From an uncultured Bacteroidota bacterium (GTDB lineage Bacteria > Bacteroidota > Bacteroidia > Chitinophagales > Chitinophagaceae), in contig CAIUZK010000011.1 in NCBI GenBank assembly GCA_903903635.1, positions 1 through 62,803 on the forward strand: 62,803 nucleotides of DNA, given 5' to 3'. The notes beneath the pieces are model-generated. The model did not search any database, was not told where the DNA came from, and saw nothing but the letters and a program-made list of their open reading frames with translations. The translations under genes and the position numbers were made by a program. Positions 2,476 to 54,772 of this stretch are shown piece after piece (the first letter of the stretch is position 1; the number at the start of each line of letters is the position of its first letter).

Positions 2476-4080
2476 TTATAGCTTTTGCAGTTGCTGCGTT
2501 TTCAGAATTTGTCCGTTAGCATCCTGAACAGAAATGATGTATATGCCGTTTTTCAGACCTGATAATGATATTGTCTCCCGTTCATTCATCCAGGACAGAT
2601 TTTCAGTAATCACGATCCTTCCAAGTGCATCTATAATTTTAATAATAGTGGCAGCACCTTTGGTAAAGTCGGTACGATATAAACAAATATTGTTTGAAGC
2701 AGGATTGGGAAAAATAGTTATGGCGCCTGCGGAGACAATATTTTGCTCCACCTTTGTCAGATCAAAAGGTTCATAGTAATAATAGTATTTCCTTTCGGGA
2801 GAAGAGAGGTAATAGCCAGCGCCTGTGAGTGAATCGGAGAACACATAATTAAATGATTGTGCCTCTAAAGGATTACTATAAGTATCGTAGGTAAACCATA
2901 TTTTTTTACTGAAGGTTTTTTGAGTAACCGGCGCGGTGTAACCGCCATAATAATTATAAATAACGGTATCGGGCAACCCATATAAGGATACATTCTTCAG
3001 ATATTCGCAACTGGCATAGACAGTATCACCAGAAAACAGCCTGGTACCGGCAAAGGTAAAATAACTTATACCTGCTGTATAGCCAAAAGAATCATTAATG
3101 TAGGCGGACCAAACGCCGACATTGTACTGTGAAGTGCTGTCTTTCTGCAGGGTGGAATCGGGGTTATAAACCAGATATTGCCTGATCTGGGGTTGCCAGA
3201 AACCAGAACTATCGGCGTATAAGCAGGTGAAAGTCATATTGCCATTTATGTCGTAAGCGTATACCGATTTACGGTTTTCAACCCAGGCACCGGTATATAC
3301 ACTTGAACTATCGGAAACCAACTGATTTAAACCATTGTAGGTATAGCAGACTATACTTGTGGGTTCCCAACTACTCATTATGGAATTATAAGAATAATAC
3401 ATTGCGGATATCCTGTTGTCCAGCGTGTCGTAATTCAATTGGCAACGATATTTGCCGCCCGGGAGCGTGGGATAATATTGATTATCAGTTTGTGTAAGCA
3501 AATCACCTGAATAAGTATTGAGCACCTTATCGGCAAACCCAAAAATATTGCCTGATGAGGGACCAAAAGGACAATAAGAATTCCATGCATAAACACTATC
3601 CGGCATAATGTCCATACTTATTACAGGAGATTGAACGGGGGCATAAATAAGTGCAAAAGGATAATTCTGGTCAACAGGGGAAGTATATGTATTCACTGAA
3701 GGCGACAGATAAGCCATTTTCTGGAAATTAAATAATGAGCTCCGGTTGCTGCTATAAAAATAATAGGCTGAGTCGGATTTACCAGGGTGGCTGGCAAACG
3801 TATCCAGAAGATTATAACCACAAAAAGCTTTAAGCCGTTCGCCTGAAGCGCCTGATGATTTTTTAGCTGCAATATGCATGCTCTCACGGCGTTCGTATTG
3901 CCGCTGCAATACTGATTGTAAATTGCCGGCTACAAACACAGATGCGGGAGTAACCGGCGAAACAGCAACGCCAGCCTGCCTGTGGATCTGTTGAATATTA
4001 CTAAAGTTCTGTGCAGTAACCTGATGACTGTTTGCCAGCAGCAGTAACGTTGAGAAAATATATAAAAACAGTTTTTTCAT
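2476..4080 (-). CDS. T9SS type A sorting domain protein of unknown function
   Basis: A 534-residue secreted protein. Residues 1-23 are a signal peptide (MKKLFLYIFSTLLLLANSHQ start). The middle (about 100-430) is rich in Tyr, Ser and Asp, with several YAYDxNGN / YTYNGLNQL-like strands that recall the YD-type repeats found in many large Bacteroidota surface proteins, though they are too degenerate to call as Rhs. The last 80 residues are a T9SS type A domain (ITIFPNPASN, GLKNGIYIISV, TQQLQKL end). It is transcribed alone, with 222 bases to the esterase gene downstream. The domain layout says surface or secreted; no enzymatic motif was found. Confidence 0.8.
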   Translation of the reverse strand: MKKLFLYIFSTLLLLANSHQVTAQNFSNIQQIHRQAGVAVSPVTPASVFVAGNLQSVLQRQYERRESMHIAAKKSSGASGERLKAFCGYNLLDTFASHPGKSDSAYYFYSSNRSSLFNFQKMAYLSPSVNTYTSPVDQNYPFALIYAPVQSPVISMDIMPDSVYAWNSYCPFGPSSGNIFGFADKVLNTYSGDLLTQTDNQYYPTLPGGKYRCQLNYDTLDNRISAMYYSYNSIMSSWEPTSIVCYTYNGLNQLVSDSSSVYTGAWVENRKSVYAYDINGNMTFTCLYADSSGFWQPQIRQYLVYNPDSTLQKDSTSQYNVGVWSAYINDSFGYTAGISYFTFAGTRLFSGDTVYASCEYLKNVSLYGLPDTVIYNYYGGYTAPVTQKTFSKKIWFTYDTYSNPLEAQSFNYVFSDSLTGAGYYLSSPERKYYYYYEPFDLTKVEQNIVSAGAITIFPNPASNNICLYRTDFTKGAATIIKIIDALGRIVITENLSWMNERETISLSGLKNGIYIISVQDANGQILKTQQLQKL

Positions 4081-4287: not shown

Positions 4288-4410
4288 ATGAAATTCAGGA
4301 TTTTTTCTATTCTAGCTCTACTTATTATTGTAGGATTAAGCAGTTGCACCAACCGTCAGTTCCCAGGAAGGTATCATCAGGATGGTCAGGGGCATGCTCG
4401 TTTTTATTGA
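4288..4410 (+). CDS. Small lipoprotein, 40 residues
   Basis: A short reading frame overlooked by length cut-offs. It begins MKFRIFSILALLIIVG and has a clear lipoprotein signal ending in the lipobox LSSC with Cys20, followed by TN and a polar 18-residue tail rich in His, Gly and Gln. It is preceded by A-rich sequence and a TATCTTTA element (-7-like, at 4256-4263). Its last 7 bases overlap the end of the convergent TonB receptor gene. Tiny lipoproteins of this design are common in Chitinophagaceae, but their roles are unknown. A longer overlapping frame at 4170-4433 has no signal or family resemblance and is judged a shadow. Confidence 0.55.
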   Translation: MKFRIFSILALLIIVGLSSCTNRQFPGRYHQDGQGHARFY

Positions 4411-6368
4411 TTTTTTTCTTTTACGATACCTAAGTTTAATGCCAGAAGCCAATTGGTACCGGGCATAGGCCTGTAGGCTACTACCTGGTATTGGCTATTC
4501 CATATGTTGTTGCACTGACCTGAGAGGCGGAGCTTATGTTGCCTGAAACGCGTATCCAACATTAGCTGAACGTTTCCTGTAGCATATGGTGTAATAAAAT
4601 AAGACTCATCGGAAGTAATGAAACGGTAGCCTGTGTAGGTGTGATTGTAATTAAATGACAACTTTCTGAAAGTAAATCCGGCATTCGCCTGTCCATTATA
4701 ACGGGGCGTATAGGGAATCTGCTTTCCTATACTTCCATCGTTGTAAATATAACTGGAAACGGTAGTTGCCAGAATGTAGGATGTATTCAGACCAATATGG
4801 AACTTCCAATGGCCCGTGGTGTAAGAAATATTGTTTTCCGTCTCTACTCCCCTGCTGTGCACCTCTGAAATGTTGTGAGGTGTCCATATAGCGCCACCTA
4901 TCCACAATATCCAATCGTGGATATTGCGGTTAAATACCGAGACATCATGACTAAGTGTAAAATCGCCGGCTTTAAAACTCAGCAAATAGCCGGCATCTTC
5001 GCTCCAACCCTGTTCCGGTTTCAGACTTGTATTTCCACCAGGGAAATAATACAACTCATTCAATGCAGGGGTGCGGTAAGTACGTTGTACATTTGAACGC
5101 AATAACAACCATGGAGTAATAGCAAAGGATGCATTTGCACCCGGAAGTAAAATATTGCTTTGCCTGGCTTCAGTTCCACTATTAATAATTTCATTTCGGG
5201 CGCTTACAGATATATCCAACTTATCCTTCCACACCTTGATATCATATGCACCAACAAGGGCTACACGGGATTGTTGTTTTGAGCCTTCCCCCTGCTGATT
5301 GAGCCAGGCAAGCTGGAAGGGCGTAAACATAGATATACGACCCCAAAAACCTAATTCTTTTTTCCAGCCCACTTCCTGATAATACTGGTAAACACTATTG
5401 TTTACGTGTAACAAAATAGCATCATCGCTATATCCAGATTCATCTTTAACAAATGATGACCGGGCATACCATTTATTTGAACCAGTAACTTTATTCCATT
5501 CTGCAACAACCCTAAATGCGCCATCCTCCTGCTTTTTTACAGAGGATGATTCAAGCAGACCGGGAGGGATTTCCCGGCTGTATTGCTGCATCCAGGCAGT
5601 AAGGCTTACCACCTGCAAAGCGCCTATTTTATATGCAGCCCGTAATTGGACCGCTTCGCTCTGTAAACGGCTGTTGTGCATATCTGATTTAATACCCTGA
5701 TTGCTGGTAAAAGTAAAATTATTGATGGCAGATTGAGCATATACACTGCCGGAAAAAAACCACCTGTGATTGTGAATATCAGCATCCAGTCCACCCATAT
5801 ACTGGCCAAAGCTTCCGGTTCCTGCATTTACAAAAAGAGCGCTCTTTGCCGAATCGAAAACCGGCGCATCGTTTTCCAGCATCAGGGCGCCACCAACATT
5901 ACCACTGCCCCATAAGGCTGAAGAGCCACCGTACACAATATTTACCTTGTGCATAAATGAAACAGGCAGTGTGGAAATATCCGCAATACCCAATGCAGCA
6001 TTCTGTATAGGCACGCCATTCCAAAATACTGCCGACTGGGCTGACGAAGAACCTCTGAAATTCAATGTTGCCAATCCATTAAAACCATAAGATTTTACAA
6101 ACACCGGAACCTGCTGTGTGAGCAGACTGGCCAGACTCTGCAACTGGTATTGATGAAGTGTGGCGCTATCTATAGTTTTCACCTTCTGCCCCGGCGAGAA
6201 ATCGTTGATCCGGGAGTCATTGGAAACTTTGCGTTTGGTATGGATATTAATTTCCTGCAGTGTTGTGTCATTAGTATTCTGACAGTAAGCATCTGAGGGA
6301 AGGATACAACCAATAACAGCCGCAAAAAGCAGCATTTTCAATGTTATCTGTGTGTATAGCGTTTTCAA
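4404..6368 (-). CDS. btuB: BtuB-like TonB-dependent receptor (vitamin B12 uptake)
   Basis: Outer-membrane transporter for the last step of surface cobalamin capture, powered by TonB. I chose the TTG at 6368, four bases after the BtuG stop. It gives a 654-residue protein whose signal peptide has a basic n-region (KTLYTQITLK) before the hydrophobic core. The first ATG is at 6335 and would lose that region; longer in-frame starts run into the btuG gene. A plug domain follows the signal (SLASLLTQQVPVFVKSYG, then LNFRGSSSAQSAVFWNGVP). A 22-strand-type barrel rich in aromatic-alternating strands fills the rest. There is no carboxypeptidase-like N-terminal extension, so it is BtuB-like rather than SusC-like. 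It is the last gene of the riboswitch operon, directly after the BtuG-like lid, as in Bacteroides B12 loci. Confidence 0.85.
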   Translation of the reverse strand: MKTLYTQITLKMLLFAAVIGCILPSDAYCQNTNDTTLQEINIHTKRKVSNDSRINDFSPGQKVKTIDSATLHQYQLQSLASLLTQQVPVFVKSYGFNGLATLNFRGSSSAQSAVFWNGVPIQNAALGIADISTLPVSFMHKVNIVYGGSSALWGSGNVGGALMLENDAPVFDSAKSALFVNAGTGSFGQYMGGLDADIHNHRWFFSGSVYAQSAINNFTFTSNQGIKSDMHNSRLQSEAVQLRAAYKIGALQVVSLTAWMQQYSREIPPGLLESSSVKKQEDGAFRVVAEWNKVTGSNKWYARSSFVKDESGYSDDAILLHVNNSVYQYYQEVGWKKELGFWGRISMFTPFQLAWLNQQGEGSKQQSRVALVGAYDIKVWKDKLDISVSARNEIINSGTEARQSNILLPGANASFAITPWLLLRSNVQRTYRTPALNELYYFPGGNTSLKPEQGWSEDAGYLLSFKAGDFTLSHDVSVFNRNIHDWILWIGGAIWTPHNISEVHSRGVETENNISYTTGHWKFHIGLNTSYILATTVSSYIYNDGSIGKQIPYTPRYNGQANAGFTFRKLSFNYNHTYTGYRFITSDESYFITPYATGNVQLMLDTRFRQHKLRLSGQCNNIWNSQYQVVAYRPMPGTNWLLALNLGIVKEKNQ

Positions 6369-6372
6369 ATCC

Positions 6373-7443
6373 TTAGTTATCAAAATAAAAATGTCCGGGG
6401 CCTGATCCAACATTGAAACTGGTTCTGACTGTGCCGTCTGGTCTATAAATATAAACAGTACCCTTCTGGTTGAAATCTTTGGCATCGGCAATATAGATTT
6501 CATCATTTGCCGGATTAATACCCACTGCATAAAAATACTGGTTGGCTTTATCTGCAACGAAGGGTTGTGCAGGTAAAGCCGAGGCATGAATACCTACTTT
6601 ATAAACACCATTGGGCATTGTACCTTTATTGTATGCTTCAAGAAAGCAGATTGTATCTTTTGCCGCATTCAACACAGGCTTAAACGGATTGGCATTTGCA
6701 GGGAACAGAAAGGAGTGCAGTACCTCACCTGTCGTAGGGTCGATACGCGATAAGGTAGCCGTTGTACCATATGGCTCGTCACCAGCCAAAACCCACAGCA
6801 TCTGCTCTTTGTCGATCAATACCTCCTGCGGAGCCTTTGCCGGCAGATTAATCTCCCTTATGATGTTATTGGTAATGATATCTACCTGATACAATTTGCC
6901 GCAGGCTGTATCCCAAACACAAATATAGGCAGAGCCATTATAGAGGCACATACCTTCTGTGTTTCGATAGGGGAACGTAATAGAATCTGATACCACCAGG
7001 GTTTGAGGATTGATAATATAGACCTTGTTGTTATACTCAGATGATATATAGGCTTTGGTAGTGCTTACAGGCAGTATGTACCTTGGTTTCTTTATGTTTA
7101 TTGTGCCGGTTTGCTGCCAGGTAGCGGAACTAAGCACCACTATTTTATCTGAATTATTGATACACAGGAATAATTTATCACCAATATGCTGCATGCTTTG
7201 AAAAATATCACCAAGCGGCTGCTTATTTACGCTTTCGAAAATGTCACCAAATACGCTATCCTTGCCAGATGCCCATGCATAAAGAGATGCATCGCCTGAA
7301 GTGAAATTACCTTCACAAATCACATATACATTTCCTATAGCCCCGGGGAGGCTGGAGTATGCAGGCTCAGGTTTATCTTTTTTACAGGAAACCAGCCAGC
7401 AACAAAGAATAAGAATCAGCGCCTGATAATTTTTTCTGTCCAT
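6373..7443 (-). CDS. btuG: BtuG-like surface lipoprotein (seven-bladed propeller, DUF5074-type)
   Basis: A 356-residue lipoprotein: signal peptide with lipobox LVSC and acylated Cys20, then KKDKPEP. From about residue 35 the sequence is a YncE/DUF5074-like beta-propeller with repeating blades of about 45 residues (GNVYVICEGNFTSGDASLYA, KAYISSEYNNKVYIINPQT, MLWVLAGDEPYG, EIYIADAKDFNQKGTVYIY). In Bacteroides thetaiotaomicron BtuG proteins of this fold bind cobalamin very tightly outside the cell and sit as a lid on BtuB. The adjacent BtuB-like gene and the upstream B12 riboswitch argue for the same job here. The start overlaps the preceding gene by 28 bases, suggesting translational coupling. 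Confidence 0.82.
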   Translation of the reverse strand: MDRKNYQALILILCCWLVSCKKDKPEPAYSSLPGAIGNVYVICEGNFTSGDASLYAWASGKDSVFGDIFESVNKQPLGDIFQSMQHIGDKLFLCINNSDKIVVLSSATWQQTGTINIKKPRYILPVSTTKAYISSEYNNKVYIINPQTLVVSDSITFPYRNTEGMCLYNGSAYICVWDTACGKLYQVDIITNNIIREINLPAKAPQEVLIDKEQMLWVLAGDEPYGTTATLSRIDPTTGEVLHSFLFPANANPFKPVLNAAKDTICFLEAYNKGTMPNGVYKVGIHASALPAQPFVADKANQYFYAVGINPANDEIYIADAKDFNQKGTVYIYRPDGTVRTSFNVGSGPGHFYFDN

Positions 7444-8435
7444 TTGTTACCATTTGTATCGTTTAGCAACAGGTAATAAATACCCGGCGGGCAAGCTGTA
7501 AGCGACATGGTGGTGGTGCAGCTTACAACATTTGTTTGAAAAACCACATTGCCGGTTATAGTGGTCAACTGTGCTGTTGTGAGGTTATTAACACCACCCT
7601 TCTGACCGATAGTTATAAAATCTGCGGAAGGATTGGGATAGATCATCAAACCTATATTCTCCTGCAGCCTGTTTACACTTTCGAATGCTTCGTGAATAAC
7701 ACCAACAGCATCCAGGTCGAAACCACAGGAAGGGAATGGCGATGGATAAGGATCGTTTATTATCCTTCCGGAATGATCGTGGGATGCATGAGCCCCAACA
7801 GATCCTACCACATCAATAAGCCGCACATGAGTCACATTATTTACATCGAGACCCGGAGTGCCAGCCAATTCATCCAAATCGAAAGGAGTGCCATACATGC
7901 CTATATACTTACCGGCAAGGTTATTGATATTGACCGCATTCATGTAACCGGCATTGCTAACCTGAACATCGGTAGCTGTTAAAGAAGAAGCGGGGAACCG
8001 GAAATAATTTATACCATCAGAACTTACTTCAACAAAAGCCAGTTCAAGGTAAGCCAGTGAGGAATCAGCAAAATCGCGGAATCCATTTTCGAAAACGGCG
8101 AAATCCGGCCCGGAGCCATTGATTATGGGATGAAGGAAGGTAAGGTCGGCAATACCACTATCGCCAAGGCTCACAACCCCACCATCTGGTATGCCGGTGG
8201 CCAGACTGCTGTCGCCGAATGTGGCACAACCAAGTGAAGTATCGGCAATATCCAACCATCCCCTGTGTAATGAACAATGAATAGCCCATGACACAAACTG
8301 GCTGCTTCCGGCACTGATGGCAGCGCTGCCTGCAAGCCCGGCCTGTGGCGCATATTGGGCAAAAAGCCCATGAGCCGGAATCAGCAATGTTATAAGCAGA
8401 CCTGATAATAGTTTCTTAATCAATTTCGATTTCAT
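7416..8435 (-). CDS. T9SS-exported cell-surface protein of the B12 operon
   Basis: 339 residues with a signal peptide (MKSKLIKKLLSGLL start, cleavage near AHGLFAQ). Residues 30-235 form a domain often found as a 'cell surface protein' in Bacteroidota cobalamin loci: GPDFAVFENGF, AFVEVSSDGINYFRF, VRLIDVVGS and GFDLDAVGVIH, which resembles a lectin-like jelly-roll. The last 75 residues are a T9SS type A domain (LMIYPNPSAD, CPPGIYYLLL, KWTEKIIRR end). It lies 14 bases after the DUF4465-like gene and overlaps btuG. Surface capture or presentation of corrinoid is the likely role by association; binding residues are not known to me. Confidence 0.78.
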   Translation of the reverse strand: MKSKLIKKLLSGLLITLLIPAHGLFAQYAPQAGLAGSAAISAGSSQFVSWAIHCSLHRGWLDIADTSLGCATFGDSSLATGIPDGGVVSLGDSGIADLTFLHPIINGSGPDFAVFENGFRDFADSSLAYLELAFVEVSSDGINYFRFPASSLTATDVQVSNAGYMNAVNINNLAGKYIGMYGTPFDLDELAGTPGLDVNNVTHVRLIDVVGSVGAHASHDHSGRIINDPYPSPFPSCGFDLDAVGVIHEAFESVNRLQENIGLMIYPNPSADFITIGQKGGVNNLTTAQLTTITGNVVFQTNVVSCTTTMSLTACPPGIYYLLLNDTNGNKWTEKIIRR

Positions 8436-8449
8436 TTGTATCCGGCTCC

Positions 8450-9427
8450 TTATTGCTTTATAAAACGCATATCTGCATTCTTTCCGTTACCTGTCAGCCT
8501 CATGATATATGCCCCTGCCTGCAATGTGGCGGTATTTATGCTCAACCTGGCAGAAGTGATATCGTATGATTCAATTGTTCTTCCGCTCATATCCATAACT
8601 ATAGCCCTGGTTAAAGACTGATCAAACAGATCGACGTATAATTCTCCAATGGCAGGATTAGGATAAACCCTGGCCGCTGAATTTTGGGGAGTGCATGCAG
8701 TTTTCAGGGTTGATGATTCAGCAGTGGTGAAATTATCGAGACAGAAATAAGCGGGTGTATTCATGCCATACAAGCCATTATCAGATGAGCTCAGGGAAAA
8801 TTGAAGACTGTCTACATGCCCCAGCGGCACCAGATTTACCCACTGCCAGCTTTTCACTATATAATTCATTGTAGAATCCGGAAAAAGGTAATTAGCGAGA
8901 TAGAAAGTAACACTATCAGGGTTCATTACCCCACCAAGGAAACCATGCACAGTAAGTTTGAACCAATCGCCATTATGAAACTTACGTGCAAAAGGATCGC
9001 CGTCACGCATACTGTTTGCCGCATAGGTACTGTTGGTAACATAACAACCATATACAGGATTGCCGGCAGCAGCCCCGATCAGTTTTACATAGTTTTGATT
9101 TCCGTAAGCAACAACATAATTGTGAGATGTGTCATAACCCCGGCCTGCCCTGGCTGAATACTGGTTGAGGAAACCACTCGTAGCGCTGTCAGTCATATTT
9201 GAATAAGCAAAACCAGAGCTCCAGAAACCGCCCCAGCTTGTGTCGTAATAGCAAGGGAAATGAGCCAGCCCATCATTATAACCCACATCAGACATAGAGG
9301 CAGAATAGTTGACATAAAAAGTATCGGGATGAGCAAGGCTCAGGTCCTCGAATGAGGCGACAGTCTGGGCCCCGGCATAAATGGAACCCAATAAAAGGGA
9401 AGCAGTAACAAGTGAAATTCTGTGCAT
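8450..9427 (-). CDS. DUF4465-type T9SS protein, first gene of the B12 operon (BtuH-like candidate)
   Basis: I start at the ATG at 9427 (MHRISLVTASLLLG), which gives a clean signal peptide; an upstream ATG at 9463 would put twelve extra residues before it. Residues 20-240 match the DUF4465 pattern: VASFEDLSL near the N-terminus, then GFWSSGFAYSNMTD, GFLNQYSARAG, VKLIGAAAGNPVYG, FKLTVHGFLGG and SDNGLYGMNTPAYFCLDN. Such proteins occur in Bacteroidota B12 loci, and surface B12 binders of this neighbourhood (BtuH) are known; I infer, but cannot prove, the same function. The C-terminus is a T9SS type A domain (ARVYPNPAIG, MRFIKQ end) in place of the lipid anchor. It is the first gene after the riboswitch. 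Confidence 0.78.
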   Translation of the reverse strand: MHRISLVTASLLLGSIYAGAQTVASFEDLSLAHPDTFYVNYSASMSDVGYNDGLAHFPCYYDTSWGGFWSSGFAYSNMTDSATSGFLNQYSARAGRGYDTSHNYVVAYGNQNYVKLIGAAAGNPVYGCYVTNSTYAANSMRDGDPFARKFHNGDWFKLTVHGFLGGVMNPDSVTFYLANYLFPDSTMNYIVKSWQWVNLVPLGHVDSLQFSLSSSDNGLYGMNTPAYFCLDNFTTAESSTLKTACTPQNSAARVYPNPAIGELYVDLFDQSLTRAIVMDMSGRTIESYDITSARLSINTATLQAGAYIMRLTGNGKNADMRFIKQ

Positions 9428-9482: not shown

Positions 9483-9504
9483 AGAAAAATGCGGGTAAAC
9501 CCAC
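9483..9504 (-). terminator. Attenuator-like hairpin between riboswitch and operon
   Basis: On the minus strand GGTGGG-TTTA-CCCGC is followed by ATTTTTCTG. This is a short GC stem plus a U-rich tract, placed after the aptamer and before the first gene. It may be the expression platform; a stronger palindrome CCCGGTAA-T-TTACCGGG (9550-9566) directly after the B12 box is an alternative partner (P13-like). Confidence 0.5.
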
Positions 9505-9567
9505 CTTCATCTCACCTGTGCTTTTGGTCCCGAAAGCAGCGATAAGTATCCCGGTAAATTACCGGGC

Positions 9568-9937
9568 CAAAGGCAGGTCTTCTGACTTACTCCACTTTTT
9601 CGCGGCCTTCCCATCCGCATTAGCGAACAGTGGCAAAACAGGTAGCGAAAAAGCTTAGGAACGATGATAAAATAACTCCCACCATCTTACTCGTTCTATT
9701 CCATTTTTATTTCGTTGAAAAAGTCTTTATCCCGAAAGCCTTCGGGACGCAGATTTTACGCCTCATAAAACATGCCTTCGCTAAAGCTATGGCAGTTAAT
9801 AAAAGAAATATAACTTCGCAATATGGTGGAACTTATTTCATCAACGTTCCTTAAAGGAGCTAACAGCATCGGGTAATGTCCAGGATTTACACCTGATTCC
9901 CTTTTCATCATCCTGCAAAAAGCAGGTTGAACCTTTG
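9568..9937 (-). promoter_or_regulatory. Cobalamin (B12) riboswitch, split by a 195-bp repeat element
   Basis: Read on the minus strand. The closing stem P1 is CAAAGGT (9931-9937) with GCCTTTG (9568-9574). The conserved core is present in order: GGGAATCAGGTGTAAATCC, then ACATTACCCGATGCTGTTAGC, later GCCACTGTTCG, ATGGGAAGG, and the B12 box AGTCAGAAGACCTGCC. Removing the repeat element at 9657-9851 leaves about 175 nt, close to the normal aptamer size. The element sits in the peripheral variable region between the CTGTTAGC and CCACTG segments, so all core segments remain intact. Downstream genes encode B12-uptake surface proteins, which agrees with repression by B12. Confidence 0.88.
9657..9851 (+). 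repeat. Palindromic repeat element, copy B (full length, inside the riboswitch)
   Basis: Complete element: left arm AGGAACGATGATAAAATAAC and a right arm that is its near complement, pairing over about 29 bases up to the CACCAT ends. One copy of the 31-bp inner unit (about 9770-9801) is present. The middle carries a private hairpin, CCCGAAAGCCTTCGGG, instead of the AT-rich tract of copies A and C. There is no coding capacity of transposase type, so it is MITE- or REP-like. Flanking bases do not give a clear target-site duplication. Confidence 0.85.
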
Positions 9938-10005
9938 TTTGCACAAAAGTATATAGTAATGGATTAAACAGCAGATATTTTTTTAATCGAACTGTGAATA
10001 AGTCG

Positions 10006-18940: not shown

Positions 18941-19393
18941 ATGTCGAAACTTAAAGAACAATTGTATCTGCTTTGTACAGAATATTTAAGAAATAAGGAA
19001 GCAGAAATAAAAATGGCTATCTCAGAAGCACAGGAAGCCGCTAACAGTGATACAAAGAGCAGTGCAGGAGATAAATTTGAAACGGGAAGGGAGTCCATGC
19101 AGCAGGAAATAAACCTTAACCTGACCCGTATGAGTGAACTGAACAAACAAAAGCAGACGCTTGAACTGATCATACCGGCTCAAAAAAGCTCTGTTGTTAT
19201 GCCAGGTTCGTTGGTGCGCACCAATAATGGGAATTACTATATAGCCATAAGCGCCAAACAACTAAAGGTGGATGATATTTCTTACTACGCTATATCCATA
19301 GCCTCTCCGATAGGCGAAAAGCTTTCAGGAAGAAAAGCAGGTGAATCATTTGAGATGAATGGAAAGAAATTTATAATTGAAAGTCTAGCTTAG
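18941..19393 (+). CDS. GreA/GreB-like transcription factor
   Basis: 150 residues in two parts. The N-terminal half (1-85) is a helical, coiled-coil-like region ending in the conserved TKSSAGDKFETGRESMQQE. The C-terminal half (about 90-150) matches the GreA/GreB C-terminal domain: VMPGSLVRTNNGNYYIAIS, ISIASPIGEKLSGRKAGESF and GKKFIIES. This form is common in Bacteroidota, often with wrong names such as 3-oxoacyl-ACP synthase. Acidic residues at the coiled-coil tip (GDKFETGRE) suggest it could act in the RNA polymerase secondary channel. A good ribosome site AAGGAAACAGGAT precedes the ATG. It is monocistronic and divergent from the phosphatase gene. Confidence 0.85.
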   Translation: MSKLKEQLYLLCTEYLRNKEAEIKMAISEAQEAANSDTKSSAGDKFETGRESMQQEINLNLTRMSELNKQKQTLELIIPAQKSSVVMPGSLVRTNNGNYYIAISAKQLKVDDISYYAISIASPIGEKLSGRKAGESFEMNGKKFIIESLA

Positions 19394-19425
19394 GAACGAT
19401 GACGAAATATCTTAAAATATTCCCA
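19392..19425 (+). repeat. Deletion remnant of the palindromic repeat element
   Basis: The left arm AGGAACGATGACGAAATA is directly joined to TCTTAAAATA.TTC, a tract found about 70 bases further in in copy C. It looks like an internally deleted element that lost its right arm. It begins at the stop codon of the GreA-like gene. Confidence 0.5.
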
Positions 19426-20272: not shown

Positions 20273-20431
20273 AGGAACGATGAGGAAATAACTCCCACCA
20301 TCTTACTCGTTCTATCCCATTTTTATTTCGTTGTAAAAGTCTTAAAATAATTCATTATTCGCAGATTTTACGCCTCATAAAAAAGAAATATAACTTCGCA
20401 ATATGGTGGGAGTTATTTCATCAACGTTCCT
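20273..20431 (+). repeat. Palindromic repeat element, copy C (complete arms, no inner unit)
   Basis: Left arm AGGAACGATGAGGAAATAAC and right arm, its near-perfect complement (29 positions with a few mismatches), bracket a 100-base AT-rich middle. The 31-bp inner unit is absent. It fills the gap between two convergent genes and ends 5 bases before the stop of the giant gene, so as RNA it can act as a large terminator-like hairpin for both. Confidence 0.8.
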
Positions 20432-54695: not shown

Positions 54696-54769
54696 GTAGA
54701 GTAGGCAAGGGGAATTTCATCTCAAGCCTCTCTCAGAACCGTACTTGACAATCTCTCATCATACGGCTC
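54696..54769 (-). ncRNA. Group II intron domains V and VI (remnant 3' end)
   Basis: On the minus strand 54769-54736 is a 34-nt domain V: GAGCCGTAT pairs with GTACGGTTC, with the inner stem GATGA-GAGA-TTGTC closed by a GNRA loop; the AGC catalytic triad is kept. Domain VI follows and the intron ends at CCTACTCTAC (54696). The 5' part of the intron (domains I-III) is not seen upstream. Confidence 0.85.
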
Positions 54770-54772
54770 TTA

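Follow-up and report, generated by a model that had tools for sequence, protein, structure and literature searches.

A MITE-like palindromic element inserted in the P6 region of a cobalamin riboswitch that most likely still works

Can a riboswitch still work when a mobile repeat has inserted into its aptamer? The question is raised by a leader on the minus strand of the window, i.e. the entire stretch of 62,803 nucleotides that was analysed, from an uncultured Bacteroidota bacterium (Chitinophagaceae). Rfam matched the cobalamin riboswitch RF00174 twice in this leader, at 9555-9758 (44.3 bits) and at 9808-9951 (35.6 bits), and each match exceeded the gathering cut-off of 31.5 bits by itself. 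The former is sound in its 3' part only, from CCACUG to the P1 arm, the latter in its 5' part only, from the P1 arm to CUGUUA. Because each match is sound in one half only, we conclude that these are two halves of one aptamer. In the whole genome no RF00174 match besides both halves was found. The 5' half (9854-9937) runs from the 5' arm of P1 to the 5' strand of P6; the 3' half (9568-9654) contains P7, the next hairpin, the B12-box region and the 3' arm of P1. Both were delimited by the RF00174 matches and by alignment with 29 orthologues. Matching P1 arms had been claimed in an initial annotation of this DNA. Indeed, CAAAGGU (9937-9931) pairs with GCCUUUG (9574-9568) over 7 bp, and the arms end at the nucleotides given there. 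The labels P6a, P6b, P7 and P8, which denote helices of the P6 accessory region, are those of the present analysis.

The kissing loop between L5 and L13 that is described for the cobalamin riboswitch class in the relevant parts of PMC9600662 and PMC9911696 has its counterpart in the window. P5/L5 (CAUUACCCGAUG, 9867-9878, minus strand) contains CCCGA, a motif that all 29 orthologues share without change and that can pair with the UCGGG of a P13-like hairpin loop (9518-9540, minus strand). Judged by eye, this hairpin is conserved in the orthologues, UCGGG is present in all rows of the downstream orthologue alignment, and the complementarity of both loops is conserved across the alignments. In folding calculations the P13-like hairpin had a probability of 0.96 with the element in or out. 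A terminator scan yielded a terminator-like hairpin, GUGGGU..ACCCGC (9504-9491), followed by a U run (together 9485-9504, minus strand). As shuffled sequences gave 0.7 such sites on average, the one site is weak evidence alone; by eye, a hairpin with a T run is found at this place in the orthologues, too. At the other end of the leader, TACTTTTG (9944-9951, minus strand) fits TAnnTTTG, which we take to be the -7 promoter consensus of Bacteroidota. TAnnTTTG-like words are located at the same place in the orthologues; a scan for sigma-70 promoters gave none.

The aptamer is situated upstream of an operon that resembles B12-uptake operons, all on the minus strand. The first gene (8450-9427) encodes a DUF4465 protein with a C-terminal secretion signal (PF14717, PF18962) and the second (7416-8435) a protein with a secretion sorting domain only (PF18962). 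They are followed by a DUF5074/YncE-like beta-propeller (6373-7443; PF16819; 8bmx_D, E = 2.4e-38), which presumably is BtuG-like, and by a BtuB-like TonB-dependent receptor (4404-6587; PF00593, PF07715; 8p98_A 'Vitamin B12 transporter BtuB', E = 8.1e-52). The YncE-like protein and the TonB receptor match chains D and C of the single entry 8bmx. The product of the second gene, for which Pfam gives the sorting domain alone, possibly is an uncharacterised component of B12 uptake.

What separates the two halves? The initial annotation had reported an element of 195 bp. An insertion is present; its size had to be corrected to a core of 193 bp, GGAACG...CGTTCC (9658-9850, minus strand), bordered by a 3-bp target duplication, TAA at 9851-9853 and again at 9655-9657, both flush with the core. 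The element is a dispersed repeat, with at least 53 matches in its own genome when 40 of 207 candidates were scored. When up to 3 mismatches were allowed, the end motif was found there 127 times in forward and 119 times in reverse orientation (246 in all), the reversed pattern, used as a control, at 7 + 6 places. Nineteen stretches with both ends could be extracted from the window plus 30 fetched loci; three were false starts and were dropped, leaving 16 genuine copies. An exact, flush 3-bp direct repeat, always TAA or TTA, borders 13 of these 16 (13 of 19 before dropping). Among the remaining three, one has TAA/TTA, and two are composites with a different 3' part. The outer arms are common to the copies and the tips differ; the cores of genuine, non-composite copies measure 157, 187-193 and 210-214 bp. 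The nearest copy among the candidates scored is about 96% identical to the window element, and related elements are present in 28 of the 35 genomes of the genus (own genome counted). The 193-bp core contains no ORF of 80 or more amino acids, and no autonomous partner was evident among the first 100 end-motif places listed. Terminal inverted repeats, short size, a flush target duplication and many dispersed copies are features of MITEs, and we classify the element as a non-autonomous, MITE-like transposable element.

The RNA of the window copy was predicted to fold at -70.5 kcal/mol (z = -7.36; none of 200 shuffles was as good). The self-folding palindrome that had been proposed is thus borne out. 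The arm is longer than the approximately 29 bases initially assumed, since self-pairing involves about 70 bp, i.e. 73% of the 193 nt. The element was also considered as a known RNA family and this was rejected: the only Rfam matches of the region are the RF00174 halves, whose extension into the element is a spurious alignment, and none of the 20 other element loci that were searched (L002-L021, out of 29) gave an Rfam match.

Further copies and repeats were noted. A short copy with a 157-bp core and a flush TAA duplication is located at 20274-20430 of the window. One composite, at 29-250, has another sequence in place of its 3' part, and the same composite is found in L024. Additional matches of the end motif are at 19392-19410 and 4043-4061, with 1 and 3 mismatches. 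Several contigs start or end within the element (L004, L008, L014, L015, L019, L021, L025, L026), so the repeat fragments the assembly. A group II catalytic intron (RF00029, 64.9 bits) was matched at 54696-54771 on the minus strand.

Does the aptamer remain complete when the element is taken out? An RF00174 match was found in 31 of the 35 genomes of the genus, own genome counted. The orthologue set consisted of 29 of the 30 other genomes, with G026 left out; in each the aptamer was taken together with a DUF4465-like match that starts 121-177 nt downstream of it. The comparison with relatives that lack the element, as the initial annotation had proposed, is available: the 29 aptamers score 85.1-110.9 bits against RF00174 and none is interrupted. 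Aligned with them, the element-free window keeps all 80 invariant columns, all 89 columns conserved at 95% or more and all 98 at 90% or more, at 67-85% identity to individual orthologues. In this alignment the spliced row has one A more than the duplication-exact splice used for the folding and HMM tests. A profile HMM of the 29 orthologues assigned 172.6 bits to the spliced window (145.0-192.3 bits for orthologues in leave-one-out tests) and matched the window with the element twice, with 84.4 and 78.5 bits. This confirmed that all conserved aptamer segments are present and in order. RNAalifold predicted 40 pairs for the 29 orthologues, 14 of which have at least one double change. They lie in P1, P2, P4, GCUCC:GGAGU/C and the hairpin after CCACUG; P3 and P5 were not formed, and GGGAA was paired with UUNCCC instead.

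The joint that hosts the element, on its 5' strand, connects GCUCC:GGAGU (P6b) with CUUUUUCGC:GCGAAAAAG (P7). At this place CUG and CCACUG are 32-40 nt apart, in the spliced window as in the 29 orthologues; length-variable columns hold or adjoin 24 of the 201 inter-nucleotide sites of the aptamer. The assumption of a variable loop was right insofar as the site is peripheral and of variable length. It is no hairpin loop, rather an asymmetric joint between two helices. At this length-variable joint between two P6 accessory helices, the inserted hairpin would become an extra arm. A TAGC...GCTA stem, suggested to flank the element, was discarded: in the orthologues GCUCC pairs with GGAGU/C, and CUUUUUCGC:GCGAAAAAG follows; at the place of TAGC and GCTA they have segment pairs such as GTATGC/GCAACC or GTGAGC/GCAACC. 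A pattern scan of genome contigs, which may omit the own genome, for the element at the same joint returned only 3 Pseudomonas loci, which by their taxonomy were taken as chance.

Next to the conserved sequence stands the question whether the aptamer can still fold. The 51 assigned native pairs, all of which are standard pairs in the window, were forced and the ensemble cost was measured in a model without ligand, pseudoknot and kinetics. For the native fold this gave 5.81 kcal/mol in the absence of the element and 5.87 kcal/mol in its presence, i.e. predicted folding was unchanged. When 15 other copies of the element were used as inserts, 13 cost 5.87-5.92 kcal/mol and the two composites 7.13 and 8.44 kcal/mol. 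Sixty dinucleotide shuffles had a mean of 11.58 kcal/mol and 60 random 196-mers from the window a mean of 12.87 kcal/mol (minima 5.89 and 6.54). No shuffle and no genomic piece was as cheap as the element, the best shuffle being just 0.02 kcal/mol above it. P6b had a pairing probability of 0.97 without insert and 0.89 with the element; the means were 0.04 for shuffles and 0.01 for genomic pieces. P3, P5 and P8a were poorly predicted whether the element was present or absent. In this model self-complementarity insulates the insert, and the calculations agree with the proposal that the element was tolerated thanks to its palindromic nature. Of 89 positions at which the element was placed along the aptamer, 36 cost 1 kcal/mol or less; consequently, folding alone does not single out the joint.

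Is the extra arm a peculiarity of this genome? In a survey of the order RF00174 was matched in 349 of 393 genomes (best matches listed). In 13 genomes besides that of the window the best match was weaker than 1e-15, and several of these aptamers are long. Ten of the 13 were searched again and gave a single match each, thus none of the ten is split like the window. Among 160 lower-scoring genomes, 36 of 214 matches (11/90 + 25/124) were at least 240 nt long; as these genomes were picked for low score, this is no general frequency. The 42 long aptamers that were inspected more closely comprised 35 of the 36, one from the genus (G009), four from weak-match genomes and two from the order survey. 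Thirty of them carry 55-133 nt at the joint that is occupied in the window, and of these 20 fold at z <= -2 and 10 do not. In six the length resides in the loop of the next hairpin (five at z <= -2), three were unanchorable and three had neither arm. The aptamers of G167, G217 and G209 score 88-112 bits, arm included.

For five genomes the arms were compared with the rest of the genome, and they look like repeats of it. The 102-nt arm of G353 has at least 76 matches, many of them partial or overlapping (40 of 172 candidates scored; the best other copies are 75-77% identical). The 177-nt arm of G167 is found at 9 further places with 78-89% identity, in a 400-kb sample and without a shuffle baseline. 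The G166 arm has 13 more matches, short and partial; that of G292 was found at 4 places in a 400-kb sample (shuffle mean 0.05), and two arms of G332 at 5 and 3 places (shuffles 0). Random pieces occasionally match repeats, too: a piece from G332 did so at 16 places and a piece from G292 at 1. The arms of G353 and G167 are located in the loop of the next hairpin, those of G166, G292 and G332 at the joint used in the window. Tentatively, and with somewhat less than even confidence, we suggest that the P6 accessory region in this order is a recurrent graft site for palindromic mobile or dispersed repeats, which survive because they fold on themselves and turn over as arms. The graft places, for which our confidence likewise falls a little short of even, would be the P6b-P7 joint or the loop of the next hairpin. 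If this is true, part of the size variation of cobalamin riboswitches consists of domesticated mobile repeats, and the window presents the fresh birth of an arm.

Two loci of the survey deserve mention in their own right. L148 (G167:C18), from another family of the order, has an aptamer at 201-568 of the locus (88.4 bits) that carries the 177-nt dispersed palindrome within the hairpin loop following CCACUG. This makes it the second candidate case of an aptamer that harbours a mobile repeat. In genus g43 (L157, L158, L159, L163, L164, L166, L168, L169) the P6b-P7 joint bears arms of two or more sequence types, which consist of short repeated units, as if arms had been exchanged at a single site.

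How the locus came about and what the insertion did to the switch can be read in several ways. The genome consists of 275 contigs and several end inside the element, hence two unrelated contigs could have been joined within the repeat. Such an assembly artefact is very unlikely and was rejected: the flanks are the complementary halves of the genome's sole RF00174 aptamer, they carry matching TAA repeats, and the joined sequence has an HMM score like that of an orthologue. More serious is the proposition that the insertion broke the switch, that the halves fail to assemble in time, leaving the operon in a constitutive on or off state, and that the sequence is intact just because the event is recent. 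The halves are 196 extra nt apart, the 3' half is transcribed with a delay owing to the arm, and the element is absent from all 29 orthologues examined. The element also is young, its nearest copy being 96% identical, and few mutations would be expected to have accumulated whether the switch is broken or works. Neutral decay at half of the 4% divergence would, by a rough estimate, have hit about two of the 98 conserved positions; absent decay therefore is weak evidence of selection, and the insertion may be so recent that decay is not yet visible. Given how recent the insertion looks, conservation alone is no proof that selection continues. Against a broken switch speak the unaffected predicted folding and the long arms at this length-variable joint in other genomes of the order, the high-scoring aptamers of G167, G217 and G209 included. 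We consider a broken switch unlikely.

Possibly the element neither destroyed nor spared the switch and instead altered it. A long RNA duplex of about 70 bp, as formed by self-pairing of the element, is a plausible substrate of RNase III. A cut would leave the aptamer in two pieces, joined through P1, P3 and P6; alternatively, the delay by 196 nt of extra transcription between the halves would shift the response. Either would amount to a new regulatory behaviour, which appears rather improbable to us.

The best explanation, with a probability of roughly 0.7, is that a MITE-like element was grafted onto the P6 region of a cobalamin riboswitch typical of the genus, was tolerated, and that the switch most likely still works. 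The 193-bp core with its 3-bp TAA duplication would have inserted in the 5' strand of the P6b-P7 joint. The transcribed element would close on itself and thereby become an extra arm, and the joint probably turns into a three-way junction in the three-dimensional fold. Core, L5, P13 loop and terminator would retain their partners. B12 would presumably still bind and regulate, with control by binding that favours termination ahead of the operon, and the fitness of the cell may have been preserved.

The locus thus offers a transposable element with readable borders inside an aptamer whose uninterrupted form is seen in 29 orthologues, a natural experiment on how structured regulatory RNAs acquire peripheral arms. 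It suggests a simple, testable rule: self-complementary inserts are insulated, ordinary inserts are not. If arms at the same joint elsewhere derive from dispersed repeats, mobile palindromes would be a source of riboswitch architecture beyond being a threat to it.

How does this compare with known systems? In the portions of the review PMC10969869 that deal with them, bacterial MITEs are short and non-coding and have inverted terminal repeats, a target duplication, many copies and stable folds. The window element is alike in size, lack of coding, inverted ends, duplication, copy number and folding; unlike the MITEs covered there, its family has no name. That MITEs may form riboswitches or terminators is speculation only in these portions of the review. 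Among open-access publications, most subscription papers lying outside, we found no mobile repeat inside an aptamer, and the pertinent parts of PMC8546581 and PMC5644110 describe no such insertion. Variation of the P6 region (PMC9600662) and a repeat between riboswitches (PMC3049150) are already known. With RF00174 cobalamin riboswitches that have a P6 accessory region the window shares the aptamer, the L5-L13 complementarity and the position before B12-transport genes; in contrast to the known P6 accessory region, the extra stem here is a recognisable transposable element of 193 nt with its target duplication. The nearest case is the leader of the pneumococcal trp operon, upstream of which a BOX element lies between two T-box riboswitches. 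In the section of PMC3049150 concerned, the authors draw the inference that the riboswitches have remained functional, the parts being largely independent in their folding. Both cases present a folded, dispersed repeat in a riboswitch leader. However, BOX is placed between two complete T boxes, whereas the window element resides inside a single aptamer.
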